Source of the DNA: a virus | Strand: one strand, 5' to 3' | Virus record (IMG/VR): IMGVR_UViG_3300005095_000164 | Span: 1-31,720 of that record | DNA length: 31,720 nucleotides | In this document: positions 5,613 to 31,626 of the stretch, piece after piece | How the letters are laid out: each line of letters opens with the position of its first letter | Numbering within the stretch: the first letter of the stretch is position 1 | Translations under genes and position numbers: made by a program | The notes under the pieces: model-generated | What the model was told of the DNA's origin: nothing | What the model saw: only the letters and a program-made list of their open reading frames with translations | Databases searched by the model: none

Positions 5613-5622
5613 ATTATACCTA
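5613..5622 (-). promoter_or_regulatory. Leftward promoter of the portal operon
   Basis: On the minus strand, AGGTATAAT (TATAAT at 5618-5613) lies about 45 bp upstream of the portal ATG. It is back to back with the rightward promoter at 5645-5656. Confidence 0.55.
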
Positions 5623-5644
5623 TTAAAGTTTTTAAAGTCAAAAA

Positions 5645-5682: not shown

Positions 5683-5814
5683 ATGTTTTCGCAAGATTTT
5701 ATCTCTTATCTCGGTTTCCTTCTTCTGATTCTTCTTATTTTTTCCTCTTATTCTCTTATTATTATTCTTATCTTTGATATTCTTTGTTATCTGTGTTTTG
5801 ACACATTTCATTAA
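5683..5814 (+). CDS. Small hydrophobic membrane protein, 43 residues
   Basis: It starts MFSQDFISYLGFLLLILLIF and continues as almost unbroken hydrophobic sequence for about 35 residues, enough for one or two membrane spans. It has its own extended -10 promoter (TATAAT at 5651-5656) and AAGGA nine bases before the ATG. A competing ATG at 5676 gives only 17 residues and is too near the ribosome-binding site. The stop codon overlaps the first copy of an 11-bp tandem repeat. Function is unknown. A small membrane protein with a private promoter between two late operons could be a holin/antiholin, a superinfection-exclusion peptide or a type I toxin-like peptide; nothing in the sequence decides between these. 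Confidence 0.5.
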   Translation: MFSQDFISYLGFLLLILLIFSSYSLIIILIFDILCYLCFDTFH

Positions 5815-5854
5815 CTTTTCATTAACTTTTTATTAATCTTTCGTTAATCTTTTG
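5811..5854. repeat. Four tandem 11-bp repeats (TTAACTTTTCA-like)
   Basis: TTAACTTTTCA, TTAACTTTTTA, TTAATCTTTCG and TTAATCTTTTG follow each other without gaps (5811, 5822, 5833, 5844). One helical turn per copy suggests a protein-binding array or iterons. It is found at R1 only and not at R2 or R3. Confidence 0.7.
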
Positions 5855-5880
5855 TGTTTTTTAGTGATTTTTGATGGTTT

Positions 5881-6060
5881 TGCCACATCCTGCCACATAG
5901 CCTGCCAGTAGGAAACGCCCAGCCACAGGGGCTTTGCGAGGATTCGTGCCACTTCCTGCCACATTCTGCCACATTATGCCAAGAGAATTTTCGATGTGGC
6001 ATAGCGCGCAAACGCCCTTGTAGTGGGGCTTTGCGAGGATTTTCTGCCACATTGCCAGTA
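5881..6060. promoter_or_regulatory. Control region R1, left arm (TGCCA decamers plus two GC hairpins)
   Basis: TGCCA sites begin at 5881, 5891 and 5903, then at 5947, 5957, 5967 and 5977 (exactly 10 bp apart), then 6045 and 6053. An opposite-strand TGTGGCA is at 5995-6001. Two GC-rich hairpins lie between the clusters: AAACGCCC with GGGCTTT (5913-5935) and GCAAACGCCC with GGGCTTTGC (6008-6034). Read outward (leftward), it has the same order of parts as the right arm at 6314-6424, with one extra hairpin and site cluster. Confidence 0.75.
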
Positions 6061-6145
6061 AAATCGCAGAAAATTGATTTATAAATTTTAGGTATTCGTC
6101 GTCTTATATAGTGGTTATCTTGGCTGGACTTTCGTGTGTTTTTTT

Positions 6146-6230
6146 TTCCTGAAAGAAAGGAAGTGGATGGGATTTTCTCTTGACATTGTTATCTTTCTTG
6201 TAAGCTCAACCTTTTCCCTTTTTTAAGGAA
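6146..6230. repeat. Dispersed inverted-repeat element E4 inside R1
   Basis: The ends TTCCTGAAAGAAAGGAAG and CCTTTTTTAAGGAA pair imperfectly around a pyrimidine-rich centre. Closely similar copies sit in the same place in R2 (25382) and R3 (31226). Confidence 0.65.
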
Positions 6231-6231
6231 T

Positions 6232-6281
6232 GCGAAGCGAAGCGTAGCTATTTTATACAATACATTACACACTTGTTACAC
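6232..6281. promoter_or_regulatory. R1 core: GCGAAG repeats and two TTACAC sites
   Basis: GCGAA-GCGAA-GCGTAGC (from 6233) is followed by TTACAC at 6265-6270 and again at 6276-6281, 11 bp apart. TTACAC is close to the half-site of the dyad at 6464-6483 read on the other strand. The same core is found at 25468-25519 and 31309-31359. Confidence 0.65.
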
Positions 6282-6313
6282 TATTTTTTATTTTTTAAAA
6301 ATTATATAAAAGA

Positions 6314-6424
6314 TGTGGCAATGTGGCATAAAAACCCTGCAAATGCCCAGCCACAGGGCGTTTGCGAGCCTTGCCACATCCGAAATTCTCTTGGCATTCA
6401 CTGGCATTATGTGGCAGAATGCCA
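6314..6424. promoter_or_regulatory. Control region R1, right arm
   Basis: Order: TGTGGCA (6314), TGTGGCA (6322), the hairpin GCAAATGCCC/GGGCGTTTGC with 7-base loop AGCCACA (6339-6365), TGCCACAT (6372), then TGGCA at 6392, 6402 and 6412 (period 10) and TGCCA at 6420. It is matched almost part for part by 25553-25663 and 31393-31503. Confidence 0.75.
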
Positions 6425-6463
6425 GATAAAAAGACCTAAAACTGCTCAAATCAGACCCTATAT

Positions 6464-6483
6464 TTGTGTAATACACTACACAA
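6464..6483. promoter_or_regulatory. Dyad TTGTGTA-N6-TACACAA upstream of the tape measure operon promoter
   Basis: Perfect 7+7 inverted repeat with a 6-bp spacer. Its centre is about 60 bp upstream of the expected start of transcription from the promoter at 6497-6526, a position typical for an activator that contacts RNA polymerase. The 6+6 form is kept at 25691-25708 and 31541-31558. Confidence 0.7.
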
Positions 6484-6496
6484 ACAAGCTAAAATT

Positions 6497-6526
6497 TTGC
6501 AATTATAACTACTAATACGCTATAAT
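6497..6526 (+). promoter_or_regulatory. Promoter of the tape measure operon
   Basis: TTGCAA (6497-6502), 18-bp spacer, TATAAT (6521-6526). R3 has the same arrangement at 31573-31601. Confidence 0.7.
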
Positions 6527-6548
6527 ACTAATAAAAAAAGGGATAACA

Positions 6549-6998
6549 ATGATTAAAAAACTTAATAAATTCATTCACAAGCTTACTACCACCAATAAAA
6601 CAATAAAAGAAGAAAAAGGTTTAGAGCTTTTTAATACTATTACTATTAATAATAATGATAAAGCTTTCAATAATACCAAGTATCAATCACAAAATTTTGA
6701 GCTTGTATTTGAAAAGCCGAGTAAATATAGTGTTTTAAAAGATATAGAGAAAATTGAAAAATATTCTCAAGATATTACAAAAGAATTTGAAAATCTTGAG
6801 CCTGTTGTATTTAATTATCAATTATTATTATATATATTTAGTTTACTAATAGAATCAAAAGGTATCAAGTATAAAAACAACGAGTTATCAGCCAGCCAAC
6901 TAAAAAAAATAACATACAAAGACGCGGCAGGTAGCTTAGATATAGACTTTCTTGAGGCAATCACTATGTTAGTGTATCAAAAAATAATGGAGTCTTAA
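6549..6998 (+). CDS. Protein of unknown function before the tape measure; candidate tail assembly chaperone
   Basis: A 149-residue protein with AAAAGGGATAACA before the ATG. It begins with a basic, Asn/Thr-rich stretch and ends with a compact helical part (FNYQLLLYIFSLLIESKGIK, then ITYKDAAGSLDIDFLEAITM). I do not recognise the family. In siphoviruses the slot between tail tube genes and the tape measure gene usually holds two overlapping tail assembly chaperone genes (lambda G and GT), and this gene and the next fill that slot. Here the second gene starts by stop-start overlap (TAATG) rather than an obvious slippery-site frameshift. The assignment is positional. Confidence 0.5.
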   Translation: MIKKLNKFIHKLTTTNKTIKEEKGLELFNTITINNNDKAFNNTKYQSQNFELVFEKPSKYSVLKDIEKIEKYSQDITKEFENLEPVVFNYQLLLYIFSLLIESKGIKYKNNELSASQLKKITYKDAAGSLDIDFLEAITMLVYQKIMES

Positions 6999-7370: not shown

Positions 7371-10300
7371 ATGAAAAATACAGAAAATGGACAGTTAGAT
7401 ATTGTATTCAATATTAAATACGACCCCAAAACACTCGAAAAATTAGAAAAATCTCTTGTTAGTGTAAAAAAAGAATTTAAAAGTGGAGTCAAAGAGAGCG
7501 AAGCTTTTGGTAAAAGTTTTGCAGGAGCTTCTTCAAAAATAAATAATTTTAATAGGTATTTAGGATATGCCAAGTCTGGCTTGAGTAGTTTAGGTAGTAA
7601 AGTTGGAGCGGCGGCTTCTTCTTTTTTTAGGCTTTCAGGTAGTTTAGATAGCGCTGGGAGCGCGAGTAGAAGGTCATCTTCTTCTTTTTTAGGTACAAGG
7701 CGTAGCCTTAATTTATTAACTACAAGTGCAACAAAAGCTAAGTCTGCAATTTCTTCTTTGGGTAGTAAGCTTAAATCCGTTGCAACTACCACGCTAAAAT
7801 GGGGCGCTTTAGGCGCTGGGCTTGCAGGTGCAGGTAGTATAATTGGTATAGGTAAAAAAATTGGTAGCGACGGTATTAGCTTTTTAAGTCAAATGGAAAA
7901 ATTTCAGGGGGTCCTCGAGGCTGTTACCAAAAGTAGCGAAAAAGCCCAAAAAAGTATGCAATGGATAAAAGAATTTGCAGAAAAAACCCCCTTTGATTTA
8001 AACGCTACAGCCGAGGCTTTTGTGCAACTAAAAGTAAAAGGAATCGAGCCAACCAATGGCACACTCAAAATTTTAGGCGACACCGCTGCCGCAATGAATA
8101 AGTCTATAGTGGATGCCGTGGAGATGTTAGCTGACGCACTTATTGGTGATAACGAGCGCCTTAATAGCTTTGGTATTAAAGCCAAGGTGGTTGGCAACAA
8201 AATAGCCTACGGCTGGACGGACTCAAGTAACAAATCCAAACTTGTTATTATAGATAACAATAAACAAATTATACAATCCACTCTCTTAGCTATATATAAT
8301 AGTAAATATGCAGGTGCAATGCAAAAACTGGAATCAAGCTGGCAAACTAAAATGTCCAATTTAAAAGCCGCGTGGTCTTCTTTTGCAGGTAAAATAATGA
8401 AAGATAGTGGTATTTTTGATATTTTAAAAGGAACTATAGGCGACACTACAAAAGAATTAAAGAAGTTTACCAACAGTAAAAAAGATTTAAGTGGTATACG
8501 CGCAGGCTTTGTTGCACTTGTAAATTTAGCTTTTAAGCTTGCAAAAGGTATGGTTTACGCAGGCGGCGCTGTTGTTGTAGCGTTTAGTAACATAGGTAAT
8601 GCAATACAAGTTGCAAAGTATTACTTAAATAAATTTACAAATGCGCTTGTAGCTACGGGCTTGGCAGCCTTGGATGTTTTGCATAATATAAGTATATTTG
8701 GCTTGAGCGACGCCAAATTTAAAGAATATACAAACCAGCTACTTGAGTTTAAAAAGGCAGCCAAATTTAAAGATGTGCAAACTCCAGAAGAATTTACAAA
8801 AAAATTTACTGGAGATATGGAAAAAATAAAAGATGGCGTTAAAAGTGTAAATAAAGTTATAGATAATTTACAAAATAATTTAAATAAAAATGCAAAAAAT
8901 TACGATAAAAAGCCTAAAGTAGCGCCAAAAAATGGAACTACTGCGCCAACTACAACAGTGCCAGGCGCAATTAATGGGGACTTGAGTGACGCAGAAAAAA
9001 TCATCAAGAGTCAAAAAAAAGAAGACCCTCTTGATAGCTTAAACAAACAGCTTGCCATTGCAAAAGCTATAAATAATGAGGAAAAAATAAGAGAACTCCA
9101 GCTAAAAAAACTTGAGCTGGAATTAAGAAAGAGCGGAGCTACTCAAGAACAAATACAAAAAGCCATAGCCAAAAAAAGAGAGGAATTTGCAAAAAAAGAT
9201 ATGCAATTAACACAAACTCAAAAAGAAAAAGCTCTAAGCGCAACAATAGCTAAACTTGCAAAAGAAGAAGAATACTACGAAACAATTGGAAATAAAGAAA
9301 AATACAGAGAGGCTCATCTTAAAAAAATGGAGTTAATGTATAAAAGAGAAGGCTATTCTCAATCAAAAATTAACCAAATGTTAGCCGCTGAAAAAGAAAG
9401 ATTAATTCAAAAAGAACAAAAATTACACCTGACTCAAGAAAAAAGATTAAACTCAATAGCTAAAAAAGAAGAAAAAGAAATAGAAAGAGCGCAACAATTG
9501 GCTGCGCAAAAAGAACAACAATATAAAGCTGCCTTACAACAATACTACCAAATTATGGGTATGAAAAGAGAGGCAAACGAATTACAAGTAGAAAATACAG
9601 CCGAAAACCTTTTAAAGGGTGGCTTAAGCCAAGAACAAGTTGCACAAGCTGTTAGTAAGCTAAATACTCAATTTAATATAAAGCTTAAGATAGAAAATAA
9701 GGAACAACTTCTTGAGTATTACAATACAATTAAAAACAGCGAAAAAGCTCTTCAACTTGAGTTGGAAATTACCAAATTAAAATGGCAGGAAAAAGGTTTT
9801 ACAGCTGCGCAGATTCAAGATATGTTAGCTGTTAAAACTCAAGAAATTAATGATAAGCTCAAGGCGCAACAAAACACTATATTTGGTGGGCTTTATAAAT
9901 ACCACCTCGAGTTAAAAAAGAAGATTCTGGATACAAACAACTTAACTTACCAAAGCTTTAATAAAATTGAAAACGGGCTTGTAAATGGATTCACAAACTT
10001 TTTTGATGTTACAAGTAAGGGTTTTTTAAACTTTAAAACCTTATCCAAAACCCTTTTTAAGGACATATTAGTAGAAATAGAAAGATTAATTATTAAAACT
10101 TTAGTGTTAAAAGCTATTCAAGCCTCACTTGGGTTTTTCGGGTTTAGTAAAGGTGGTGTATTTGGAGGTGGAGATGTTCAGCCGTTTGCAAAGGGTGGTG
10201 TTTTATATAATGGCGCAGAGCGCTTCGCTTCGGGAGGCGTTTTTTCTTCTCCTACTTTTTTTGGTATGCAAAGCGGGCTGGGGGTATTAGGCGAAGCTGG

Positions 10301-10659: not shown

Positions 10660-10838
10660 AAAAAGAAAACTCCTAAAGAAAGAAAAACTCTCAACCACCA
10701 AAAACCCAATCCTTCCCTTTTTAAAGAAAAAAAATAAAAGAAATTTACTACTTTTTACTACTTTTTAGCTATTTAAGCGCTTATCTATCTTAAAAAAGAA
10801 TATAACATATATATATAAAAACACAAAATGGAGAAAAT

Positions 10839-10880
10839 ATGAAAAAAATCACAAAAAATTTTAAAAAATACCCTGTTTAA
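10839..10880 (+). CDS. Array A unit 1 mini-ORF, 13 residues
   Basis: MKKITKNFKKYPV, with GGAG six bases before the ATG. The stop TAA is part of the next unit's -35-like TTTAAGAGC. Too short to assign a function; listed because the unit has a promoter and a ribosome-binding site. Confidence 0.3.
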   Translation: MKKITKNFKKYPV

Positions 10881-10942
10881 GAGCTTCTTGCCAAAAGTTT
10901 TTAATATAACATATATATATAGAAACACAAATAAGGAGCCAA

Positions 10943-11020
10943 ATGGAAAGAAATTTAAAGAAATTTGCATTTTTTTTACTAAAAATACTAATTAAGAGAA
11001 GATTTGGTTATCTTCTGTAA
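10943..11020 (+). CDS. Array A unit 2 mini-ORF, 25 residues
   Basis: The ORF starts MERNLKKFAFFLLKILIKRR and ends FGYLL, with AAGGAG six bases before the ATG. The peptide has a basic start, a hydrophobic middle and then a basic end, which could insert in or lie on a membrane. It is similar in its first ten residues to the products at 11168, 11278 and 16065. The stop TAA overlaps the next unit's TAATATAAC. Confidence 0.4.
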   Translation: MERNLKKFAFFLLKILIKRRFGYLL

Positions 11021-11167
11021 TATAACAATTATATAAGTAGTTAAGAAAGGTGCAAAAATGGAAATTTAAAGAAATTTAAGGTTTTTTTTAAAAATAAGTG
11101 GTTTAGGAGCTTCTTAGTGAAACTTTCCAATATAACATATATATAGAAAGTTTAATAAGGAGTAAAA

Positions 11168-11257
11168 ATGAGAAATTTTAAAAAATTCACTATTTTTTTA
11201 AAAATAGATGGTTTAAGAGCGTTTTCTTTCAAATTTTATAATATAACAATAGTATGA
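11168..11257 (+). CDS. Array A unit 4 mini-ORF, 29 residues
   Basis: It begins MRNFKKFTIFLKIDGLRAF and has AAGGAG before the ATG. The coding stretch runs through the next unit's promoter and ends at a TGA within its leader. The same basic plus hydrophobic start is found in the sibling ORFs. No function can be given. Confidence 0.4.
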   Translation: MRNFKKFTIFLKIDGLRAFSFKFYNITIV

Positions 11258-11277
11258 GAAAGTCAAAAGGAGAAAAT

Positions 11278-11367
11278 ATGAGAAATTTAAAGAAATTGCA
11301 ACTTTTTTTTCAAAAAAAGGCAATTAAGAGCTTCTTTCAAAAAGTTTTTAATATAACAATTATATAG
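11278..11367 (+). CDS. Array A unit 5 mini-ORF, 29 residues
   Basis: It begins MRNLKKLQLFFQKKAIKSFF. AAAGGAG lies eight bases before the ATG. It is nearly the same length and design as unit 4 and also reads through the next promoter (ending N-I-T-I-I, encoded by the AATATAACAATTATA box). Shared ends therefore come from the shared promoter sequence. Confidence 0.4.
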   Translation: MRNLKKLQLFFQKKAIKSFFQKVFNITII

Positions 11368-11388
11368 AAACAAACAAAAGGAGTAAAA

Positions 11389-11607
11389 ATGAAAAAAAAC
11401 CAAGAAAAACTTAAAATTAAACTAACTAAAGTTTTTATTTTTAAAAACTATGTTATAATAAATATAGAAAAGCTGATAAGGACATTGCGGTGTCTTTACC
11501 AGCCCGCTCTTAATAACAAAGAGCGGCAAAGGAAAGCCCGAGGTGCTACCAAAAGGGTAGCTAAAAAAATAAAATCTCAAAAAAATAAAAAAAAGGAATC
11601 ACAATGA
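11389..11607 (+). CDS. Array A unit 6 ORF, 72 residues, overlapping the leader RNA element
   Basis: It starts MKKNQEKLKIKLTKVFIFKN after AAAGGAG and ends in a very basic tail. Its stop codon overlaps the ATG of the 11604 gene by four bases (ATGA), normally a sign of coupled translation. However, its second half (from about 11461) is the structured leader RNA described below, and a second promoter (TATAAT at 11454-11459) lies inside it. The loops of that RNA change length between copies, which does not fit conserved protein coding. It may be a leader peptide whose translation affects RNA folding. Confidence 0.35.
   Translation: MKKNQEKLKIKLTKVFIFKNYVIINIEKLIRTLRCLYQPALNNKERQRKARGATKRVAKKIKSQKNKKKESQ
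11454..11459 (+). promoter_or_regulatory. Internal promoter before leader RNA copy 1
   Basis: TGTTATAAT, with transcription expected to start near 11466, just before the first hairpin of the leader RNA (11477). No clear -35 box. Confidence 0.5.
11477..11561 (+). ncRNA. Structured leader RNA element, copy 1 (three hairpins)
   Basis: Hairpin 1: TAAGGACA pairs with TGTCTTTA around the loop TTGCGG (11477-11498). Hairpin 2: CCGCTCTT/AAGAGCGG with loop AATAACA (11504-11526). A linker CAAAGGAAAG leads to hairpin 3: GCTACC/GGTAGC (11545-11561). The gene start is at 11604. Copy 2 at 12156 has the same three hairpins with compensatory base changes. I do not recognise a known riboswitch class. Confidence 0.7.
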
Positions 11608-12101
11608 CAAATTCAAAAGTAAACACAAACAAGGCATTAGTAAAAGAGGCAGTTAAAGTATATACAAAGTATTTAACAAAAGTTCAAAACCAAAAAAACG
11701 CTCAAAAAAGAGCCGAAGAGGTAGTTGCAAAGGTAGCTAAAAAAGGAGACGAAGCCTTAAAAAGAGCTATCAATGGCACAAAAATCTGGCTAAATAAAGA
11801 TGTTATAGGTTTAGATAAAAACATTAAAAAGTTAGCTGGTAAAAATATAAAAATTGGAAAAGATATTGAAATAGATAAATACACAACTAAAAACGAAGAG
11901 CTTTTAATAAATGCAAAGGCATTAGCTTGTTTAGCTAAAGTAGCTAAAGCTCAAGAGGAAGAGAGATATGCACATATAGTTGAAAGTGCAGATAAAATTG
12001 AGGTATATTTAAGCGAGTATCCAATTCTTGAGGCTTGGAACTATATTGATGATAGTGCAGAAGACGAAAACGCAGAGCTTGTTTTAAGCTTCGCAATCTA
12101 A
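11604..12101 (+). CDS. Lysine-rich protein of unknown function with acidic C-terminus
   Basis: A 165-residue protein with AAAAGGAATCACA before the ATG. The first half is basic and helical (NKALVKEAVKVYTKYLTKVQ, then AEEVVAKVAKKGDEALKRA) and the last 30 residues are acidic (YIDDSAEDENAELVLSFAI). No domain is recognised. It is the first full gene after array A and carries leader RNA copy 1, the element also found before the helicase and the 16384 and 17346 genes. A shared control of these four genes is likely, so an early or replication-linked role, perhaps DNA binding, is possible but unproven. A strong terminator follows at 12106. Confidence 0.6.
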   Translation: MTNSKVNTNKALVKEAVKVYTKYLTKVQNQKNAQKRAEEVVAKVAKKGDEALKRAINGTKIWLNKDVIGLDKNIKKLAGKNIKIGKDIEIDKYTTKNEELLINAKALACLAKVAKAQEEERYAHIVESADKIEVYLSEYPILEAWNYIDDSAEDENAELVLSFAI

Positions 12102-12155: not shown

Positions 12156-12248
12156 ATTATTGAGAGCGTTAAGGCGCTTTCAATAATCCTCTCTTAAGTA
12201 ACAAAGAGAGGAAAGGAAAGTAACAATGAGGCGCTACCAATGGGTAGC
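12156..12248 (+). ncRNA. Structured leader RNA element, copy 2 (upstream of the helicase)
   Basis: Hairpin 1: ATTATTGAGAGCG/CGCTTTCAATAAT, 13 bp with one G-U pair and loop TTAAGG. Hairpin 2: CCTCTCTT/AAGAGAGG with loop AAGTAACA (12188-12211). Linker AAAGGAAAGTAACAATGAGG. Hairpin 3: GCTACC/GGTAGC (12233-12248). Relative to copy 1, hairpin 2 swaps a G-C pair for a T-A pair, which preserves the stem. The linker also holds a ribosome-binding site and an ATG. Confidence 0.75.
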
Positions 12249-12321
12249 CAACAAAAGAAATAAAATCTCAAAAAAAACAAAAAGAAAGGATTTATTATGG
12301 AAAAAATTAAAAACCATTTAA
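12226..12321 (+). CDS. Possible 31-residue leader peptide overlapping the helicase start
   Basis: ATG at 12226 lies four bases after GGAAAG. The peptide starts MRRYQWVANKRNKISKKTKR and ends 25 bases inside the helicase gene in another frame. Ribosomes translating it would pass through hairpin 3 of the leader RNA. This would suit control of the helicase by upstream translation, but copies 3 and 4 have no matching ORF. Confidence 0.3.
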   Translation: MRRYQWVANKRNKISKKTKRKDLLWKKLKTI

Positions 12322-14003
12322 CTAAAAATTTAGGCTGGAGTAGTGAAAGAGCTTTTACTTATGCAAGTAAAGCCTTAAAATTTGCAAATATAAAAAACGA
12401 ACAAACTGTAGAGTATGGAACAGGCGCGGATTTTTATGAGGAAATCTATAAGAACACTTGTTCAATTAATTGTGACTACTCTACATTTGTTTTTGCAGAA
12501 TCCAAAACACCAAGATTCGCTTTAACAATATTAGATATAATGAAAAACGAGAATGGAGATATAATAGATGTGACTCTTAAAAGTAACGGTAATGTTACCG
12601 ATTTACACACTAAAGTAAGCGCATTTAAACAATTTGGCGCTCAGAAGTGGCTGAAGAGCCTTGGCAAGAACGCTATGTATAATACAGCGCGCTCAGATTT
12701 TTTACCTGATGAGCCTTTTGGTTACAACCCTAAAACAGGAACTTTTAACTTTTTTGTTAAGGGTCTTGCAGGTAAAAGCTACCAAAAAATGGACATAGAA
12801 TTAAATGAGGATAATATTATTGATTATTTAAAAAGCTATACCCCAGCCATATATCTTATTGCAAAAAATGTTTTTGGAGAAAATTTATTAATTAAATATG
12901 CAATAAATAGATTAGCTTATGTGTTACAAAATAACACAAAAGCGCCTACTGCACTTGTATTAGTTGGAGAACAGGGAACTGGAAAAAGCCTGTGGACCGA
13001 TGTTATAAGTAAAACTTATTTCGGAAAATATGGAAAAATTATGAGTGGCGATGAGATAGTAGGTAGTTTTAGAGATAATCTGATAAACACTACATATGCA
13101 GCGGTGCCAGAATTTTTTACCGATATTAATAACAAAAAGGCAACAGGAGTTCTTAAATCTCTTATTACAGATAAAGAAATCGTGATAAATAGAAAAGGTG
13201 TTACAGCTGTTACAATTAGTAACAATATTACGCTTGATTTGACAACTAACCACATTAACGCTATACACATTGAAGAAACAGATAGACGCTTTTGTATTGC
13301 AGAAAGCCAAAATAAACAGCTGAAAGATTTGGTATGGGCAAATTTAGAAGAGTTTGGTTTGGATAGAGAAAAAAATCGCAAAAATTATATGAAGATTTTT
13401 GTTGAGGAAATTCTTCAAAAGGAGCTTGAAATATTTGGGCGTGTATTATACAGCTATGACGCAAATTTTATGGATATTGTTAATATACCAACAACAAAGG
13501 CAAAACTTGAGGCATTAGCGCAAACAAATAGTGACACTTTTATGCCAGTTTTTTATTTAAATAATGGTAAATATAGCGATTTTACGGAAGTTCTTTTAGA
13601 TAATTTAGCTTACAAAAATGGAGAAGCTGTTGCAAAAAAATATGCCATATCTTTATTAAAAAGGATAAAAAATGAACTGGAAGAAATTGGTGGGCTTACC
13701 AATGCAACTCAAGCGGATATTCTTGAGGCAACAACAAACGGCGATATTTTTATAGGTATAAATGAAAATGGAGAAATGAAGATAGATAATTATACTAAAA
13801 AATATAAAAATGCAAAGTTAGTGGGAGCTAAATTTAAGAATTTACCACAAAAAAGAATTAGTAATAAAAGAGTGAGAATACCTAAAGTTGTTGATTTAGA
13901 AAAATTAGAAAAAGCTATCAATCTCTTGAGTTTAGATAATACTCAAGAAAACCTTGAATACAAGAAAATGCAAGAAGAGTTTGAAAAAATAATAGGCAAG
14001 TAA
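12297..14003 (+). CDS. SF3-type replicative helicase, DUF5906-like
   Basis: A 568-residue protein with AAAGGATTTATT before the ATG. The Walker A motif GEQGTGKS (residues 224-231, Lys230) sits in the context LVLVGEQGTGKSLWTDVIS. It is followed by an acidic Walker B-like AAVPEFF near residue 265 and the sensor/arginine region TTNHINAIHIEETDRRF (ending at residue 332). This arrangement is typical of the helicase part of phage and plasmid primase-helicases (D5/P4 alpha class, DUF5906), which act as hexamers unwinding DNA at the fork. The N-terminal 200 residues do not show a primase motif that I recognise, so the primase may be absent or encoded elsewhere. Only clear replication gene in the window; transcribed with its own leader RNA element. 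Confidence 0.8.
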   Translation: MEKIKNHLTKNLGWSSERAFTYASKALKFANIKNEQTVEYGTGADFYEEIYKNTCSINCDYSTFVFAESKTPRFALTILDIMKNENGDIIDVTLKSNGNVTDLHTKVSAFKQFGAQKWLKSLGKNAMYNTARSDFLPDEPFGYNPKTGTFNFFVKGLAGKSYQKMDIELNEDNIIDYLKSYTPAIYLIAKNVFGENLLIKYAINRLAYVLQNNTKAPTALVLVGEQGTGKSLWTDVISKTYFGKYGKIMSGDEIVGSFRDNLINTTYAAVPEFFTDINNKKATGVLKSLITDKEIVINRKGVTAVTISNNITLDLTTNHINAIHIEETDRRFCIAESQNKQLKDLVWANLEEFGLDREKNRKNYMKIFVEEILQKELEIFGRVLYSYDANFMDIVNIPTTKAKLEALAQTNSDTFMPVFYLNNGKYSDFTEVLLDNLAYKNGEAVAKKYAISLLKRIKNELEEIGGLTNATQADILEATTNGDIFIGINENGEMKIDNYTKKYKNAKLVGAKFKNLPQKRISNKRVRIPKVVDLEKLEKAINLLSLDNTQENLEYKKMQEEFEKIIGK

Positions 14004-14806: not shown

Positions 14807-15241
14807 ATGGCTTATAGAAAGTTTGAAAACCCAGAAGACTTAGATTTATTGTATGAGGCAGCCCTAAAGTTTGATGATAATATGTCCATACTTTCGGCTT
14901 ATATACATTTTTTGCAAGGCAGAAATGCAGAGCTACCACCATACAAAATTGAAAATGATTTATTAACTGGTAGTATATATAAATATAAGCGCTACTTATT
15001 GCAGATTATTAATAATACTAATCTGGACGAAATAGAAAATTTTATGAACTTATATAACTTTAACTTAAATAAAATGTTGAGAAACTTAGATAAGAGCTGT
15101 AATATTATAAAAGATAAGCTAAATAAGAAAGAAAAAGTTAATATTAATATATATAAAATAGATAAAATTATCTCAAAATTATTAGAAATTAAAGGACTTG
15201 CAATTGTTAATACTAAAAAATATGAAAAGGAGAAAAAATGA
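14807..15241 (+). CDS. Helical protein of unknown function, coupled to the candidate TerS
   Basis: A 144-residue protein with AAAAGGAATTATAAGA before the ATG and its own extended -10 promoter. It looks wholly helical, with tyrosine-rich and lysine-rich segments. No family is recognised. It shares a four-base ATGA overlap with the next gene, so the two are probably made in a fixed ratio. If the next gene is the small terminase, this could be a partner or accessory packaging factor, but that is only context. Confidence 0.55.
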   Translation: MAYRKFENPEDLDLLYEAALKFDDNMSILSAYIHFLQGRNAELPPYKIENDLLTGSIYKYKRYLLQIINNTNLDEIENFMNLYNFNLNKMLRNLDKSCNIIKDKLNKKEKVNINIYKIDKIISKLLEIKGLAIVNTKKYEKEKK

Positions 15242-15633
15242 GAAGAGAAGAAGCCTTAGCTTTACTACAAGACGCAGTTAATGAAGAAATAATAGATAGC
15301 GAACAAGCCCATTTTTTGGCAGTATTTGCACAAACTGGCAATGCAACAGAAGCTCTTAAAGAAAGCCATCTATCTTTTATAAAATTTGGAAATGCGCTTG
15401 CAGAAAGAGGCAGCTTCGCAATTTTATATGATTTAATATCAAATTTGAAAAAAGAAGATGCCAAAAAACACATAGAAGATTTACTACAAGACGATAAAAC
15501 TAATAAGGTTCAGCTTCTTAATTTTATTTTAAGCGATAAATTTCAACCTGAAAATTTATCTAATGTTATTAAAAAATATGAAAAAGATGACGCAAATGAT
15601 AGCCTTGATAATATGGAATTTAAGGAAGCTTAA
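15238..15633 (+). CDS. Candidate small terminase subunit (TerS)
   Basis: A 131-residue protein. Residues about 25-65 (HFLAVFAQTGNATEALKESH, then LSFIKFGNALAERGSFAILY) follow the pattern of terminase small subunits: a helix, the phrase tGNatEA, a recognition helix, then an aromatic/charged segment ending near FA-x-x-YD. TerS binds the packaging site and loads TerL. The rest is helical and acidic, suitable for an oligomerisation and TerL-binding part. It lies on the opposite strand and about 5 kb from TerL, which is unusual. An alternative is a general helix-turn-helix regulator. Confidence 0.5.
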   Translation: MRREEALALLQDAVNEEIIDSEQAHFLAVFAQTGNATEALKESHLSFIKFGNALAERGSFAILYDLISNLKKEDAKKHIEDLLQDDKTNKVQLLNFILSDKFQPENLSNVIKKYEKDDANDSLDNMEFKEA

Positions 15634-15746: not shown

Positions 15747-15836
15747 TAAAAAGTCCACTATTTTTTTCAATTTTAACTACTTTAGAGCTTTTTCTCTCAT
15801 AAATACAATATAACATATATATAGAAAGGAGAAAAA

Positions 15837-15887
15837 ATGAAGAAATTTAGAGAAATTTGCAAAAATTTACTAAAAAAAGGCTATTAA
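15837..15887 (+). CDS. Array B unit 1 mini-ORF, 16 residues
   Basis: MKKFREICKNLLKKGY, with AAAGGAG before the ATG. Its stop TAA is in the next unit's ATTAAGAG box. Very short; function unknown. Confidence 0.3.
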   Translation: MKKFREICKNLLKKGY

Positions 15888-15942
15888 GAGAAGATTTGGC
15901 TATCTACTATAATATAACAATTATATATTAACAAGGAGCTAA

Positions 15943-15993
15943 ATGAAAGAAAAAAAGAAAATTAAAGAAATTGAAGATTTTTTTTTAAAATAA
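15943..15993 (+). CDS. Array B unit 2 mini-ORF, 16 residues
   Basis: MKEKKKIKEIEDFFLK, with AAGGAG before the ATG. Charged rather than hydrophobic, so the peptide is not conserved between units. Confidence 0.3.
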   Translation: MKEKKKIKEIEDFFLK

Positions 15994-16064
15994 GCTGTTT
16001 AAGAGCTTCTTAGCTAAAATTTATAATATAACAATAGTATAGAAATTAACAAAGGAGCTAAAAT

Positions 16065-16139
16065 ATGAAAAATTTAAAGAAATTTGCACTTTTTTTTCAA
16101 AAAAAGGTGTTTAAGAGCGTTTTTCTTCTAACTCTATAA
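16065..16139 (+). CDS. Array B unit 3 mini-ORF, 24 residues
   Basis: It starts MKNLKKFALFFQKKVFKSVF and ends LLTL, with AAAGGAG before the ATG. This is the unit closest to the array A peptides (10943 and 11278): basic start, hydrophobic middle, basic, then hydrophobic end. Its stop codon overlaps the next unit's TATAATATAAC. Confidence 0.4.
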   Translation: MKNLKKFALFFQKKVFKSVFLLTL

Positions 16140-16169
16140 TATAACAATATAAGAAGGAGTTAAAAGAGA

Positions 16170-16271
16170 ATGCCAAAGAAAGAAAAAAAACAAAAACCTT
16201 TTAGGTTGGATATAACCAAAAAAAGTAAAAAATTTGAAGAAATTTTAAATTTTTTACCAAAAAAGGGATAA
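16170..16271 (+). CDS. Array B unit 4 ORF, 33 residues
   Basis: It starts MPKKEKKQKPFRLDITKKSK and ends FEEILNFLPKKG, with AAGAAGGAG upstream. Unlike its siblings it has lost the FALFFQKK core and is charged. TATAACCAAA inside it can pair with TTTGGTTATA at about 16289, and AAAAGGG/CCCTTTT spans its stop codon, so the transcript may fold into a long stem before the next leader hairpin. Confidence 0.4.
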   Translation: MPKKEKKQKPFRLDITKKSKKFEEILNFLPKKG

Positions 16272-17271: not shown

Positions 17272-17284
17272 TATAAAAGAAACC

Positions 17285-17306
17285 GAGGTGCTACCATTTG
17301 GTAGCC
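17285..17306 (+). ncRNA. Leader hairpin, copy 4
   Basis: GAGGT then GCTACC/GGTAGC around the loop ATTT (17290-17305), 40 bases before the ATG at 17346. The sequence GAGGTGCTACC is the same as in copy 1, and the following AACAATCATATT is A-rich like the others. Confidence 0.65.
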
Positions 17307-17345
17307 AACAATCATATTAAAAAATAAAAAACAAAAGGATAGATA

Positions 17346-18030: not shown

Positions 18031-19212
18031 ATGATAATGAATGATATATCAAGATATAGCTATAATATATCTTTCAAAAAGATAAAGAGAGCTTATATAG
18101 TAAGATTAGAAAAGCTTATGCAAGCGCAAAATTATATATATAATATGGCGCTTAGATTGCATAACAAAGGGTTTAGTAAAGAACAAATAATTGTTTATCT
18201 AAATGAAAAATTTAAAAATATAACTACTAAAGATGGCAAAACTTGTTATGTGTGTAATAAAAGTGTAATACAAACAGCTGTAAACAATTATTTTACTGCA
18301 TATTTTAATTATATAAAAGGAAATAATGCAGGTAGTTTAGAGGGCTTTAGATATGAAAAACCGAAACCAAAAGATATTAATGATTACTCCAACTTTTTTT
18401 ATCTAAATGACTTTCTTTTAAAAGATTTTGGTAGCTTAATATTAAATAATACAAAGAAAAGGATAGAGTTTAAGTTTTTAGATATAAAGCTTTATATTCC
18501 TTTTAAATATAATATAAATAACATTACCAAATTAAGAAGTATAAGATTATATTATAAAGAGGGATATATAAAAGTTATGATTGAAATGTATAAAAATACA
18601 GAAGTTAATATTAATAAATATAAGAGTAAAAAAGTGGTAGCTATTGATATAGGAAGCTCAAATCTTTTAACTTGTTTTTATAATTTTAAAAACCCAGAAA
18701 TTTACACATTCTCTCAATGTTACTTTAAAAAAAAGGAAAACTTGAGATTTGGAGATTTAGAGTATTATAAAAAATATATAATAACTAATATCTTAAACAA
18801 GTTCATTTCTAATATTAAAAAATATGGAGTTAATGTAATTTATATAGGTAATATGATGAGTGCGAAGTATACTAAAGATAAGAAAGATAAGAGCTTTTTT
18901 ATCTCAATTTTCCATTATTACTTATACATTAAGTTAGACAGAATAGCTCGAAAAAATGGTATTATTGTTAAAAGAATTGACGAAAGCTATACGAGTAGAG
19001 CCAGTTTTTTAGACGGAGATAAAATGGAACATTTCTCCTCTTTTTCTGGAAAAAGAATAAAAAGAGACATATATTTGACACAAAATGGTTACTTAATTAA
19101 TGCAGATATAAACGGTGCCGCTAATATATTAAGAAAAATTGATAGTAGATATAAAAATGATTTAACAGAAAAGCTTATATTGCAAAAGCCCAAAAGATTT
19201 TTATTCTCTTAG
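18031..19212 (+). CDS. Stand-alone TnpB-like RuvC protein (IS200/IS605 OrfB family)
   Basis: A 393-residue protein with AAAGGAAGGTAACATA before the ATG. The N-terminal half matches the RNA/DNA-binding part of TnpB. The RuvC parts are: VVAIDIGSSN with Asp206; an expected second block VNVIYIGNMMSAKYTK with no Glu; DESYTSRASFLDGD with Glu318; and LINADINGAANILRK with Asp359. The CxxC zinc finger of typical TnpB is replaced by FSGKRIKRDIY, as in a known TnpB subgroup in which the catalytic Glu appears to have moved to the ESYTS motif. A D-E-D set is therefore present, and RNA-guided cleavage is possible but unproven. No TnpA gene and no clear element ends are visible, so it may be a domesticated phage gene. 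Confidence 0.8.
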   Translation: MIMNDISRYSYNISFKKIKRAYIVRLEKLMQAQNYIYNMALRLHNKGFSKEQIIVYLNEKFKNITTKDGKTCYVCNKSVIQTAVNNYFTAYFNYIKGNNAGSLEGFRYEKPKPKDINDYSNFFYLNDFLLKDFGSLILNNTKKRIEFKFLDIKLYIPFKYNINNITKLRSIRLYYKEGYIKVMIEMYKNTEVNINKYKSKKVVAIDIGSSNLLTCFYNFKNPEIYTFSQCYFKKKENLRFGDLEYYKKYIITNILNKFISNIKKYGVNVIYIGNMMSAKYTKDKKDKSFFISIFHYYLYIKLDRIARKNGIIVKRIDESYTSRASFLDGDKMEHFSSFSGKRIKRDIYLTQNGYLINADINGAANILRKIDSRYKNDLTEKLILQKPKRFLFS

Positions 19213-24604: not shown

Positions 24605-25117
24605 TTAAAATTTTTCAAGATTGAAGTCGCCTGTAAAATCGTCTACTTGAGTTTGATTTTGAGCTGACCAATCTATCTCTTCTTGAGTTTTGTTTTCTTG
24701 ATTTTCCTCTTTTGCGAAAAATAAAGATAGCTCCTCATCTTTTTGAATTTCAGCCAAGGCTTTTTCTGGCTCTACACCGTTTTTCAGATTTTCGATTACT
24801 TTTTCTTTTACTATATTTTTAGAGATTGTGTTAATAAAGTTGTGATTAGCTAATACAGTTTCAGCTTGCATTTCCAAACTTTTTTGTGTAAATTCTTCCT
24901 CTTTTTGAGCTAAAAGATTTTCTTTTTCATTTAAAGCTTCTTGAGTTTCATTTAGTTTAGTTGAAAGTGTATCTCTTTCTTGAGTTAATTGAGTGTTTTG
25001 TTCTGTTAATAGTCTTGCAGAAGTTTCTAAATCACTTATTAAAGGATTTAATTTTTGACCATCTTCCATATTAATAATGTGGTTTTTTAAACTTGCAATT
25101 ACTTGTAGTAAGTCCAT
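24605..25117 (-). CDS. Probable capsid scaffolding protein
   Basis: A 170-residue protein. The ATG at 25117 has AAGGAACTAAAA before it and is chosen over the one at 25204, which lies upstream of the promoter. It is almost entirely helical and acidic, with a long coiled coil (LTEQNTQLTQERDTLSTKLN, then ETQEALNEKENLLAQKEEEF) and an acidic C-terminus ending DFTGDFNLEKF. This is the typical make-up of phage scaffold proteins, which act as an internal core for shell assembly and then leave. It lies immediately upstream of the capsid gene. R2 is directly upstream of it. Confidence 0.75.
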   Translation of the reverse strand: MDLLQVIASLKNHIINMEDGQKLNPLISDLETSARLLTEQNTQLTQERDTLSTKLNETQEALNEKENLLAQKEEEFTQKSLEMQAETVLANHNFINTISKNIVKEKVIENLKNGVEPEKALAEIQKDEELSLFFAKEENQENKTQEEIDWSAQNQTQVDDFTGDFNLEKF

Positions 25118-25150
25118 TTTTAGTTCCTTTTTTTTTAATTTAATATTAGT

Positions 25151-25156
25151 ATTATA
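25151..25156 (-). promoter_or_regulatory. Promoter of the scaffold/capsid operon
   Basis: AAGCTATAATAC on the minus strand, 34 bases before the ATG at 25117 and about 45 bp from the first TGGCA site of R2. Confidence 0.55.
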
Positions 25157-25198
25157 GCTTAAAAAGTAGTCAAAGTCAATTAAATTTAAGTGTTTTAC

Positions 25199-25309
25199 TG
25201 GCATTTATGCCGCATAATGCCAGTAAATGCCAAGAGAAAATTCTATGTGGCAGGCGCGCAAAGCCCCTGCACAAGGGCGTTTGCGAGGATTTTATGCCAG
25301 ATGCCACAT
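25199..25309. promoter_or_regulatory. Control region R2, left arm
   Basis: TGGCA at 25199, then TGCCA-type sites at 25208, 25218 and 25228 (exact 10-bp steps), TGTGGCA at 25246, the GC hairpin GCAAAGCCC/GGGCGTTTGC (25258-25284), TGCCA at 25295 and TGCCACAT at 25302. It lacks the second hairpin and outer cluster seen in R1 and R3. Confidence 0.75.
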
Positions 25310-25381
25310 AAATTAGAGGAAAACTGTTTATAAAATTTTTAAGTAGATAGTTAGCTATCAAGTAGCTCGGAGTTTATTTTT

Positions 25382-25467
25382 TTCCTTAAAGAAAGGAAGA
25401 GGATTGATTTCTCCTGCAAGATTGTATCTTTTATTAAAAGCCCCACCTTTTCCCTTTTTTTTAGGAA
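25382..25467. repeat. Dispersed inverted-repeat element E11 inside R2
   Basis: The end TTCCTTAAAGAAAGGAAGAG pairs with the partner end finishing CCTTTTCCC...TTAGGAA. Same place as E4 in R1 and E13 in R3. Confidence 0.65.
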
Positions 25468-25519
25468 CAGCGAAGCGAAGCGTAGCTATTTTATACAATA
25501 TATTACACACTTGTTACAC
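25468..25519. promoter_or_regulatory. R2 core: GCGAAG repeats and two TTACAC sites
   Basis: GCGAAGCGAAGCGTAGC, then TTACAC at 25503-25508 and 25514-25519, 11 bp apart as in R1 and R3. Confidence 0.65.
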
Positions 25520-25552
25520 TATTTTTTTATTTTTAAAAATTATATAAAAGAA

Positions 25553-25663
25553 GTGGCATATGTGGCACAAACACGCGCAAAGCCCCAGTAGATGGTCGTT
25601 TGCAGGCTATGCCACATAGAAAAATCTACTGGCATCTCTTGGCAAAATGTGGCAGAACTGCCA
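25553..25663. promoter_or_regulatory. Control region R2, right arm
   Basis: GTGGCA at 25553, TGTGGCA at 25561, a hairpin with GCAAAGCCCC and a changed partner GGTCGTTTGC (25577-25603), TGCCACAT at 25610, TGGCA at 25630, 25640 and 25650, and TGCCA at 25659. It is kept although no operon starts on this side. Confidence 0.75.
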
Positions 25664-25690
25664 AGAGAAACATAAAAAAATGACGACTAA

Positions 25691-25708
25691 TGTGTAATAC
25701 ACTACACA
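25691..25708. promoter_or_regulatory. Dyad TGTGTA-N6-TACACA at R2
   Basis: Same dyad as in R1 and R3, but here only 10 bp from the 3' end of the XhlA-like gene, with no TTGCAA/TATAAT promoter after it. Confidence 0.65.
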
Positions 25709-25717
25709 AACAGAAGG

Positions 25718-26053
25718 TTATTTATGAGTATAAAAGTAATTAGAAACAAAAACAATAACTGCAATAGTAATACTAACTGCAATTTTCCAAAAATTGGCTC
25801 CTATTGTTTCTATCTTTTTTTCAATATTACTAACACGCATATCTAAAGGAAGCGCTTCTTTGTTTTCTTCTTTTAGAACAGAAACATCTTTTTCTAAATG
25901 AGCTATTTTTTCTTTTACAATATGAATTTCGCTATTTTGGTTACGAATAATCTTGTTTAGAGAAGTATAGTCCTCTTTTAATCTTTCAACTATTGTTGCA
26001 GTTCTTTCTGTATTTATAAGAATTTTTTCTATTTTATCATTTTGACTTGACAT
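25718..26053 (-). CDS. XhlA-like coiled-coil membrane protein (lysis)
   Basis: A 111-residue protein. The ATG at 26053, with GGGAGTATTG before it, is preferred over the one at 26095 inside the preceding gene. It has a long coiled coil (NDKIEKILINTERTATIVER, through IAHLEKDVSVLKEENKE) and a C-terminal membrane span (FWKIAVSITIAVIVFVSNYF). This is the layout of XhlA/haemolysin-type proteins, which act with a holin in phage lysis. It follows the holin-like gene. The stop codon faces R2. The call is from topology and context. Confidence 0.6.
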   Translation of the reverse strand: MSSQNDKIEKILINTERTATIVERLKEDYTSLNKIIRNQNSEIHIVKEKIAHLEKDVSVLKEENKEALPLDMRVSNIEKKIETIGANFWKIAVSITIAVIVFVSNYFYTHK

Positions 26054-26079
26054 CAATACTCCCTTTTTTTGAGAGTATT

Positions 26080-26340
26080 TTAGCTTAAAAGCCAAGCCAA
26101 TGCAATAGCTACGCCAACAAACCTTACTGCATAGTAAACTTCTCTATTTTTTAAACCCTCAACAAAATCAACACCAATGATTCTATCCGCATATCTTAAT
26201 GTGATAAAAAGAGCCGCGAAGAAGAAAGAAGCTTTAAAGCCTGCAATTAAAACACCTTGTAACATTGCGTTATCAACAAATAAGCTTCCTGCAAAAATTG
26301 CCAAACTTAAAACTAAAGCTGTGATTGTGTATTTATTCAT
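26080..26340 (-). CDS. Putative holin
   Basis: An 86-residue protein with AAAAGGATTTATA before the ATG. It has hydrophobic spans at about residues 6-22 (ITALVLSLAIFAGSLFV), 28-48 (LQGVLIAGFKASFFFAALFI) and 68-85 (YAVRFVGVAIALAWLL). Three short spans with a basic loop fit a class I-like holin, which forms holes in the inner membrane at a set time. It is next to an XhlA-like gene, in the operon that begins with the transglycosylase gene. Another small membrane protein cannot be excluded. Confidence 0.55.
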   Translation of the reverse strand: MNKYTITALVLSLAIFAGSLFVDNAMLQGVLIAGFKASFFFAALFITLRYADRIIGVDFVEGLKNREVYYAVRFVGVAIALAWLLS

Positions 26341-30157: not shown

Positions 30158-30916
30158 TTACTTAATTATACCACAAAACTTTAATATTGCCAAACAAAAA
30201 CCTGAAGGTTTTTTAATTAAGAGTGTTTCTTGTTTATTTGTTACTGGTTTGGGTTTTGGTTTACTCTTTTTTGTTTTTGTTTTTTTATGATAGGTTGGCT
30301 TTGGAGGCTTGGGTAAGTGGGCTTTGTATTTTTCCATTCTTCCATAGTAATACCATATCTTTTTTACATACTTTAGGGTTTCCTTGTGGTGCAAGCCTGT
30401 TATATAGTGCAAGTGACTGGATATTTCACTATATCTATTGCAGGTTTTACCTGTTTTTCTTTTGCATATTTTTTGAGCTTTGTAAAGATTGCCAAGACCC
30501 GCATTGTAGCTTGCAAAAGTAAGAGATAGGCGGTCTTTAAGGGTTCTCTTTGCGGACCATCTTTTGTATAATTTTTTATCATAATAAGCCCCCGCTCTTA
30601 TCGACTCTTTTGGACTTCTGATATTCACTACTCCGATTTCGCGCTGCATTTGGCGCCAAGTCGCTGGCATAAATTGCATTACACCCGCAGCTCCTACATA
30701 ACTCGTAATCCAAGGGTTTAATGTCGATTCTTGTATGCCTTGAGCCTTTAGAAGCTTCCAAGTATAAATATGATTAATGTCATTAAAGTATTTATTATAG
30801 TATTTATAGAAGTAAATATCATATGGATGTTTGCCAAGTAATTTGTATGGGTTGTTATAATGGTTTTTGGCAAATAAACTACTTATTAATAGTAATATTA
30901 GTAATAGCTTCTTCAT
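30158..30916 (-). CDS. Secreted lytic transglycosylase (SLT family), probable endolysin or tail-associated lysin
   Basis: A 252-residue protein with AAAAGGACACCAA before the ATG. A signal peptide (MKKLLLILLLISSLFA) is followed by a soluble SLT domain: catalytic Glu63 in KAQGIQESTLNPW, then GAAGVMQFMPATW (75-87), an AGAYY block and ASYNAGLGN, all hallmarks of the Slt70-type fold that cuts peptidoglycan glycan strands. The C-terminal tail is rich in Lys and Pro (PKPPKPTYHKKTKTKKSKPK) and could bind the cell wall or envelope. It is the first gene leftward from R3 and heads the lysis/tail operon. Signal-dependent export would make lysis independent of holin for enzyme release, with the holin needed for triggering. 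Confidence 0.88.
   Translation of the reverse strand: MKKLLLILLLISSLFAKNHYNNPYKLLGKHPYDIYFYKYYNKYFNDINHIYTWKLLKAQGIQESTLNPWITSYVGAAGVMQFMPATWRQMQREIGVVNIRSPKESIRAGAYYDKKLYKRWSAKRTLKDRLSLTFASYNAGLGNLYKAQKICKRKTGKTCNRYSEISSHLHYITGLHHKETLKYVKKIWYYYGRMEKYKAHLPKPPKPTYHKKTKTKKSKPKPKPVTNKQETLLIKKPSGFCLAILKFCGIIK
30165..30174 (-). promoter_or_regulatory. Promoter of the tail operon
   Basis: GTGGTATAAT on the minus strand, 37 bases before the ATG at 30128. It lies in the last codons of the transglycosylase gene, so tail genes can be expressed apart from it. Confidence 0.6.
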
Positions 30917-30939: not shown

Positions 30940-30945
30940 ATTATA
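30940..30945 (-). promoter_or_regulatory. Promoter of the transglycosylase gene
   Basis: AAGCTATAATATC on the minus strand, 24 bases before the ATG at 30916. R3 begins 27 bp further upstream. Confidence 0.55.
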
Positions 30946-30971: not shown

Positions 30972-31150
30972 TGCCGCATTGTGCCACATAGCGTGCCAGT
31001 GCCAAAGCCCCAGTGGTAGGGCGTTTGCGAGCTTTTATGCCGCGTTTTGCCACTTCCTGCCACATTCTGCCAAGAGAAAAAAAGATGTGGCAGGCGCGCA
31101 AAGCCCCATCAGCTGGGCGTTTGCGAGGAATCTCTGCCACATTGCCGCAT
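30972..31150. promoter_or_regulatory. Control region R3, left arm
   Basis: TGCCR-type sites at 30972, 30982 and 30994; a GC hairpin CAAAGCCC/GGGCGTTTG (31003-31027); sites at 31038, 31048, 31058 and 31068, all 10 bp apart; TGTGGCA at 31086; a second hairpin GCAAAGCCCC/GGGCGTTTGC with the loop core ATCAGCT (31098-31124); TGCCACAT at 31135 and TGCCGCAT at 31143. Same parts in the same order as the R1 left arm. Confidence 0.75.
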
Positions 31151-31225
31151 ATTTTGGATTTTTTGTTTTATGTTTTTTTACATTTACTGCCATTGTATGG
31201 GCATATCGGTTTTTCTGTATTTTTT

Positions 31226-31308
31226 TTCCTGAAAGAAAGGAAGAGGTTATTGTTTCTCTTAGATTGTTATCTTTCTTTAAGCTTGAACTCTTTCTCTTTT
31301 TTAAGGAA
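31226..31308. repeat. Dispersed inverted-repeat element E13 inside R3
   Basis: The ends TTCCTGAAAGAAAGGAAGAG and CTCTTTTTTAAGGAA pair imperfectly around a pyrimidine-rich centre, as in E4 and E11. Confidence 0.65.
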
Positions 31309-31359
31309 CAGCGAAGCGAAGCGTAGCTATATATACAATATATTACACACTTGTTACAC
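31309..31359. promoter_or_regulatory. R3 core: GCGAAG repeats and two TTACAC sites
   Basis: GCGAAGCGAAGCGTAGC, then TTACAC at 31343-31348 and 31354-31359, 11 bp apart. Confidence 0.65.
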
Positions 31360-31392
31360 TATTTTTTTATTTTTAAAAATTATATAAAAGAA

Positions 31393-31503
31393 GTGGCATA
31401 TGTGGCACAAACACGCGCAAAACCCCATCAGCTGGGCGTTTGCGAGCCTTGCCACATACGAAATTCTCTTGGCATCTCTTGGCAAAATGTGGCATAACTG
31501 CCA
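31393..31503. promoter_or_regulatory. Control region R3, right arm
   Basis: GTGGCA at 31393, TGTGGCA at 31401, the hairpin GCAAAACCCC/GGGCGTTTGC with loop core ATCAGCT (31417-31443), TGCCACAT at 31450, TGGCA at 31470, 31480 and 31490, and TGCCA at 31499. Spacings are the same as in the right arms of R1 and R2. Confidence 0.75.
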
Positions 31504-31540
31504 GTAGAAAACTTCAAAAACACCAAAAAACAATACCTAA

Positions 31541-31558
31541 TGTGTAATATACTACACA
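31541..31558. promoter_or_regulatory. Dyad TGTGTA-N6-TACACA at R3
   Basis: Perfect 6+6 dyad ending 14 bp before the -35 box of the rightward promoter, the same geometry as at R1. Confidence 0.7.
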
Positions 31559-31572
31559 AACAAGCTTAAACT

Positions 31573-31601
31573 TTGCAATTTTAATACTAATAAGTTATAA
31601 T
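31573..31601 (+). promoter_or_regulatory. Rightward promoter after R3
   Basis: TTGCAA (31573-31578), 17-bp spacer, TATAAT (31596-31601). An AAAAAGGAATAAACT leader and the ATG at 31627 follow. Confidence 0.7.
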
Positions 31602-31626
31602 AATACCTAAAAAAAGGAATAAACTA

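Follow-up and report, generated by a model that had tools for sequence, protein, structure and literature searches.

The window analyzed here, a 31,720-nucleotide stretch of viral DNA (positions 1 to 31,720 of IMG/VR record IMGVR_UViG_3300005095_000164), contains five late strand blocks, and each of the five is headed by one of three noncoding regions, R1 (approximately 5881–6530), R2 (25199–25712), and R3 (30972–31605). R1 lies between the portal block on its left and the tape measure block on its right, R3 between a lysis/tail block on its left and a J-like tail block on its right, and R2 adjoins the scaffold–capsid–terminase block, on its left side only. The three regions are paralogous, 500–650 bases long, and in identical orientation, with pairwise identities of 74–76%. 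Using R1 as a blastn query against its own record, R3 was recovered with an E-value of 1.9e-120 and R2 with 6.5e-82; the three regions are genuine and lie beyond chance. The sequence-only reading had assigned them a common plan, and this is borne out by the homology together with the landmarks, which lie where that reading placed them: in all three copies, two mirror-image arms flank an asymmetric AT-rich core. R1 and R3 carry an additional outer left module that R2 lacks. The right halves of R2 and R3 are 89% identical over 189 bp and their left arms 77%, and the homology between R1 and R3 extends through the promoter and RBS with no element boundary. As the three-copy alignment has gap lengths that are not multiples of three and so break the frame, R is unlikely to be coding, and we rejected that reading. 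A "dispersed element" that had been counted as part of the plan is not specific to R; it is a polypyrimidine/AAGGAAAAAA element of intergenic sequence in general, with numerous copies outside R (families D7, D9, and D12). Identical GAGGCTTCGCCTC-type hairpins follow gene ends at 1791, 4191, 10564, and 27126, adjoining these genome-wide recurrent elements.

The arms are composed of TGCC boxes at fixed spacing: 10, 10, 20 to an inverted box, 47–48 to the next, and 7–9 to the last, with the right arm mirroring the left. The left arms occupy the plus strand at 5947–6057 (R1; boxes at 5947, 5957, 5967, 5977, 5997 (inverted), 6045, and 6053), 25199–25307 (R2), and 31038–31147 (R3), and the right arms the minus strand at 6316–6424, 25554–25663, and 31394–31503, respectively. 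The left arm had been described as largely the reverse complement of the right, and the two are indeed inverted copies at 72–81%. The pattern TGCC-N6-TGCC-N6-TGCC-N17-GGCA-N41..44-TGCC matches the window exactly six times, once per arm and three times on each strand, and was never matched in 100 shuffles. The shorter pattern TGCC-N6-TGCC occurs 16 times against 0.3 expected, and every occurrence is within R. Across the six arms, identity is 98% at box positions and 61% at inter-box positions. The 47–48 bp gap of each arm encloses a 29-bp imperfect palindrome with an 11-7-11 layout, found at 6007–6035 and 6338–6366 in R1, 25257–25285 and 25576–25604 in R2, and 31097–31125 and 31416–31444 in R3. 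The outer left modules also carry TGCC boxes, three of them in R1 (5881–5945, with a partial 29-bp dyad at 5910–5938), and the R3 module (30972–31036) has its dyad at 31001–31029, bringing the total to eight dyads. The spacer is 7 bp in all eight and variable in sequence, and the same 2-bp mismatch between the halves is kept in seven. The spacers of R1L1 and R1R are identical in direct orientation, as are those of R3L2 and R3R, despite the inversion of the arms, a pattern that points to local conversion or exchange inside each of these two regions. Positions 5811–5860, immediately left of R1 and upstream of the gene for the portal, hold four near-repeats of the CATTAACTTTT/CGTTAATCTTTT type.

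The core is the most conserved part of R, with 92–96% identity in all three copies over approximately 75 alignment columns (426–500). This segment contains most of GCGAAGCGAAGCGTAGCTAT, a TTACAC-N5-TTACAC pair, a half-degenerate copy of an 18-bp dyad that recurs outside the arms, and a leftward TATAAT. The cores span 6232–6312 (R1), 25471–25552 (R2), and 31312–31392 (R3). Each has GCGAAG repeats, together with the degenerate dyad (6254–6271, 25492–25509, and 31332–31349) and the TTACAC pair (6265–6281, 25503–25519, and 31343–31359). The AT-rich tract of the core ranks in the top 0.4–0.8% of the 60-bp windows of the genome by AT content. A promoter scan returned a leftward candidate in every core (r-TGCCA, 17–18 bp, TATAAT), with consensus matches for the −10 and −35 at 6306–6301 and 6329–6324 in R1, 25544–25539 and 25568–25563 in R2, and 31384–31379 and 31408–31403 in R3. 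The outer 18-bp dyad, TGTGTAATAYACTACACA, stands outside the right arm in all three copies, at 6465–6482 in R1 (as TGTGTAATACACTACACA), 25691–25708 in R2, and 31541–31558 in R3. The GCGAAG repeats, the two TTACAC sites, and the dyad of the sequence-only reading are therefore present in all three regions. In R1 and R3 the outer dyad is centred approximately 59 bp upstream of the start point inferred for a rightward promoter; R2 retains the dyad even without a rightward operon beyond it. In every copy, 62 bp separate the core dyad from the right arm. Between the two arms the distance is 263, 252, and 251 bp, values that lie approximately one helical turn or 1 bp apart despite many indels. Helical phasing of the arm–arm and dyad–dyad distances is weak and suggestive at most (p 0.06–0.11; arm–arm approximately 0.06). 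The copies, their geometry, the promoter-like matches, and the pattern of conservation are matters of direct observation.

We examined how R is placed relative to promoter-like sites, which throughout are consensus matches modestly above shuffled expectation (88 versus 64 and 80 versus 66). Rightward sites follow R1 at 6497–6526 (plus strand; TTGCAA-18-TATAAT, before gene 6549 of the tail/tape measure block) and R3 at 31573–31601 (plus strand; TTGCAA-17-TATAAT, before the J-like start at 31627). On the minus strand, R2 is adjoined by 25151–25179 (TTGACT-17-TATAAT; gene 24605–25122) and R3 by a −10 TATAAT at 30940–30945 with a poor −35 (gene 30158–30916 of the lysis/tail block). The best site of the portal gene, at 5613–5641 on the minus strand (TTGACT-17-TATAAT), lies outside R1, approximately 240 bp to its left. 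Of 36 gene starts, 15 have a TATAAT no more than 50 bp away, where approximately 2.7 would be expected from its overall density; four of these 15 sites adjoin an R and 11 do not (1971, portal, 14071, 14807, 20363, 22791, 23549, 26080, 26374, 27148, and 29778). The R-less sites precede the capsid-position gene (23549), minor tail and neck genes, and a spanin-like 14071/14370 cassette, whose spanin assignment is weak (E 0.03), and they include TTTTGCAAT-N17-TATAAT like those beside R1 and R3. Because such sites stand before other, mostly late, genes, a late promoter does not require an adjacent R, and the earlier statement placing R at the head of every late transcription unit is wrong. The claim that each R faces outward in both directions holds for R1 and R3, which have late blocks on both sides, and fails for R2, where the late operon is on the left only; the genes to its right run towards R2, and gene 25718–26095 ends approximately 10 bp from the R2 dyad.

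Several other features of the contig were recorded. Two arrays with a repeat unit of approximately 110 bp, at 10819–11400 and 15747–16254, carry in each unit TTTAAGAGC and a TATAATATAACAA-type promoter along with an RBS and a tiny ORF; they look like repeated early promoters. A hairpin, GAGGYGCTACC..GGTAGC, recurs at 11540–11565, 12226–12250, and 17284–17310, as a 5′ leader element that the downstream genes 11604, 12297, and 17346 share. The plus-strand gene 18031–19212 encodes a TnpB/Cas12f1-like protein (PF07282, 3e-7) in which inspection by eye finds the usual RuvC-II glutamate and zinc-finger cysteines absent or displaced; transposon ends were not noticed around it. The segment 14071–15633, in an early-side plus-strand block, holds the spanin-like pair, a homologue of a gene of the relative L040, and, at the position of the small terminase, a protein that is all-helical. 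Gene 14807 is the one similar to the L040 gene (8e-5), which in L040 adjoins the small terminase and TerL; in the present contig the genes of this segment stand apart from TerL, whereas in L040 they adjoin. The J-like ORF (31627–31720 and 1–1782) is out of frame, two bases short, when the contig ends are joined, and in its phrog_469 match residue 139 corresponds to profile position 413. From these two observations the contig is probably incomplete.

No copy of R was found in IMG/VR, phages, plasmids, or Campylobacterota genomes. The arm layout had one match in IMG/VR, in an unrelated GC-rich stretch, leaving it without a credible match in 2.9 million viral contigs, and it was absent from all 397 Campylobacterota genomes searched. 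R2 DNA gave matches of only 24–53 bp, in 6 of 121 Campylobacterota genomes, no match in a plasmid collection, and only weak partial matches in a phage collection. The outer-dyad pattern was found in 92 viral stretches, as a single site in each and with R-like context in none. A MITE, insertion element, or host repeat was rejected on these grounds, since matches elsewhere are short, of low complexity, or compositional and the R1/R3 homology continues into the promoters; as far as these collections reach, R is neither a host repeat nor a known insertion element. By protein, TerL has relatives of up to 51% identity and the tape measure one of 45%. Among named phages, Nitratiruptor phages NrS-1 to NrS-3 are the best relatives, the nearest being NrS-1 (39% over 29% of the query for the tape measure; 30% for the helicase domain), and a bacterial virus of a campylobacterotal host is plausible. 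No R-like sequence was found in the terminase or tape-measure relatives, the closest of which, L040, spans only 4.4 kb. In another tape-measure relative, L018, three TATAAT sites (L018:934–994, 6563–6623, and 9291–9351) are preceded by paired AACAAAATGTAAT-type repeats approximately 20 bp apart; one of them is near the L018 tape measure gene, and the arrangement is simpler than R.

The proteins of the window were then considered as possible partners of R. Among those scanned with Pfam, no regulator with a recognizable DNA-binding domain was found, and the search for a phage protein that would bind the arms gave no candidate. Ogr/Delta (PF04606) had no match at E ≤ 10 in this possibly incomplete contig, the CII family had none among the proteins scanned, and neither had integrases or recombinases. 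ParA, ParB, ParM, and RHH families were likewise absent from the Pfam-scanned proteins, with the same reservation on completeness. That gene 11604 might encode a CII-like protein ahead of the primase, the arrangement in NrS-1, was rejected for want of similarity to the NrS-1 CII-like protein; the predicted structure of 11604–12101 is poor (pLDDT 41). Gene 15238–15633 gave no useful fold match. The primase-helicase at 12297–14003 has a DUF5906 helicase related to the helicase domain of the NrS-1 polymerase. A structured RNA was also rejected, as a hairpin is not required: the dyad halves keep their mismatch in seven of eight cases, and arm fold z-scores range from −0.7 to −3.9. Rfam gave only weak sub-threshold matches, none inside R.

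We compared R with known systems and assign it to none of them. P2/P4 late promoters use an Ogr/Delta site, TGT-N12-ACA, which in P2 lies near −55. The outer dyads at 6465–6482 and 31541–31558 likewise read TGT-N12-ACA over 18 bp and are centred at approximately −59 of TATAAT promoters; however, the window has no Ogr/Delta, the TGCC arms have no counterpart in that system, and the R2 dyad has no rightward promoter. Lambda CII-type sites consist of TTGC-N6-TTGC across the −35, that is, tetramer direct repeats 10 bp apart. R shares tetramer direct repeats at this distance near a −35 region, but its boxes are TGCC rather than TTGC, come in runs of three or four with inverted boxes, and are accompanied by no CII match. 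A tyrosine-recombinase core site has inverted arms of 11–13 bp, a 6–8 bp spacer, and a recombinase; all eight R dyads have the 11-7-11 geometry, and a recombinase was not seen in the scanned proteins. NrS-1, the nearest named relative by protein, has no comparable repeated region in its genome. Closest in plan are the baculovirus hrs and repeat arrays such as pSM19035 parS. Baculovirus hrs contain imperfect palindromes of approximately 30 bp and can act as origins (PMC6669502), and a passage of PMC2834656 describes them as enhancers. Like R, they are several dispersed, homologous, noncoding, AT-rich regions with such palindromes, but the likeness is in plan only: they share no sequence relation with R, which has two inverted phased-TGCC arms and an asymmetric core. 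In pSM19035, parS sites of 7–10 heptads overlap three promoters, and the RHH ParB omega serves as repressor and also binds the centromere (PMC9499535). R too has short direct and inverted repeats and a phased array overlapping a promoter, although with a 10-bp period with larger fixed gaps instead of contiguous heptads, and no par genes were found. Mycobacteriophage stoperators, which a passage of PMC9283540 presents as phage-specific binding sites repeated across the genome, are numerous single asymmetric sites, in contrast to three complex regions with mirrored arms.

Our leading interpretation, a tentative one that falls somewhat short of probable, is that R may be a late-gene control region working as an assembled DNA–protein complex; we infer that proteins bind R, that the DNA loops, that promoters are activated or repressed, and that the genes at R are expressed late. 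A phage-encoded protein would bind the TGCCA boxes cooperatively, at helical-turn spacing in the two inverted arms, and the bound arms would pair and shape the AT-rich core between them. The putative leftward promoter of the core, whose −35 would itself be a TGCCA box and whose start region would hold the TTACAC half-sites, would face the left late operon, namely portal (R1), scaffold/capsid/terminase (R2), and lysis/tail (R3). A second regulator recognizing TGTGTA half-sites may bind in the core and also at the outer 18-bp dyad; in R1 and R3 this dyad would act from approximately 59 bp upstream on the rightward late promoter. In this way the late strand blocks would be linked, through the three copies, to common regulators. 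This control reading is supported by R heading all five late blocks, by spaced boxes that are confined to R at strictly kept distances, by conservation that peaks in the core, leftward TATAAT and TTACAC pair included, and by a dyad equidistant from the two rightward promoters. It is weakened by the portal promoter lying approximately 240 bp from R1 and by promoter matches only modestly above shuffles, and a position at operon boundaries would be expected of any noncoding element. The repeated late-gene switch proposed from sequence survives in part: the headed blocks, the −59 dyads, and the promoter-like core fit it, but most late genes have R-less promoter-like sites. R2 is informative here. 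A right half needed solely for a right-hand operon should have disappeared from R2, where it is nonetheless present. This is explained by an asymmetric unit facing left, each of the three copies having a late operon on its left side.

A replication origin in three copies, or an origin plus enhancer like the baculovirus hrs, would also explain the kept right half, and we therefore retain it as a serious rival, if a somewhat unlikely one. Inverted initiator-binding arms would flank an unwound AT-rich core, where the primase-helicase (12297–14003) or a partner would be loaded. The iteron-like inversion of the arms, the AT rank of the core, the retention of arms, core, and dyad in R2 with no right-hand operon, the late promoters of the same type that occur without R, and the phage's own DUF5906 helicase all fit an origin. 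Three near-identical origins in 32 kb would, however, be unusual for a phage, and no initiator was found. A DnaA-type origin was rejected, with no exact TTATNCACA in the window and one one-mismatch site in R against 2.5 expected; GC skew tracks gene strand and has nothing specific at R2. Baculovirus hrs are a precedent in plan (PMC6669502), and we regard it as unlikely, but worth stating, that R is hr-like in being origin and late-transcription enhancer at once, with origin firing and late expression coupled via one protein–DNA loop. Quite improbable, in our estimation, is a centromere-like or genome-organizing site for partition, clustering, or packaging, whose repeat-binding protein would also repress the promoters it overlaps, as with pSM19035 parS. 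Phased direct and inverted box arrays that overlap promoters and are dispersed over the replicon recall that plasmid, but the Pfam-scanned proteins include no ParA, ParB, ParM, or RHH match, and nothing points to a plasmid prophage. A packaging site, moreover, normally occurs only once. We give very little credence to R as copies of a mobile element or as recombination sites, which the resemblance of the 29-bp dyads to tyrosine-recombinase core sites brings to mind. The constant 7-bp spacer, the 2-bp half mismatch, and the directly oriented identical spacers within inverted arms would suit recombination, yet the scanned proteins include no integrase, other phages, plasmids, and host genomes no copies, and the R1/R3 homology passes into promoter and RBS without an element boundary; gene conversion within R explains the spacers equally well.

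With six near-identical arms, three cores, three dyads, and R2 as a natural variant, R offers a small and clean test set. If the working inferred for the control region is true, one element plan used three times would tie the late strand blocks of this virus to shared regulators, and perhaps to replication.
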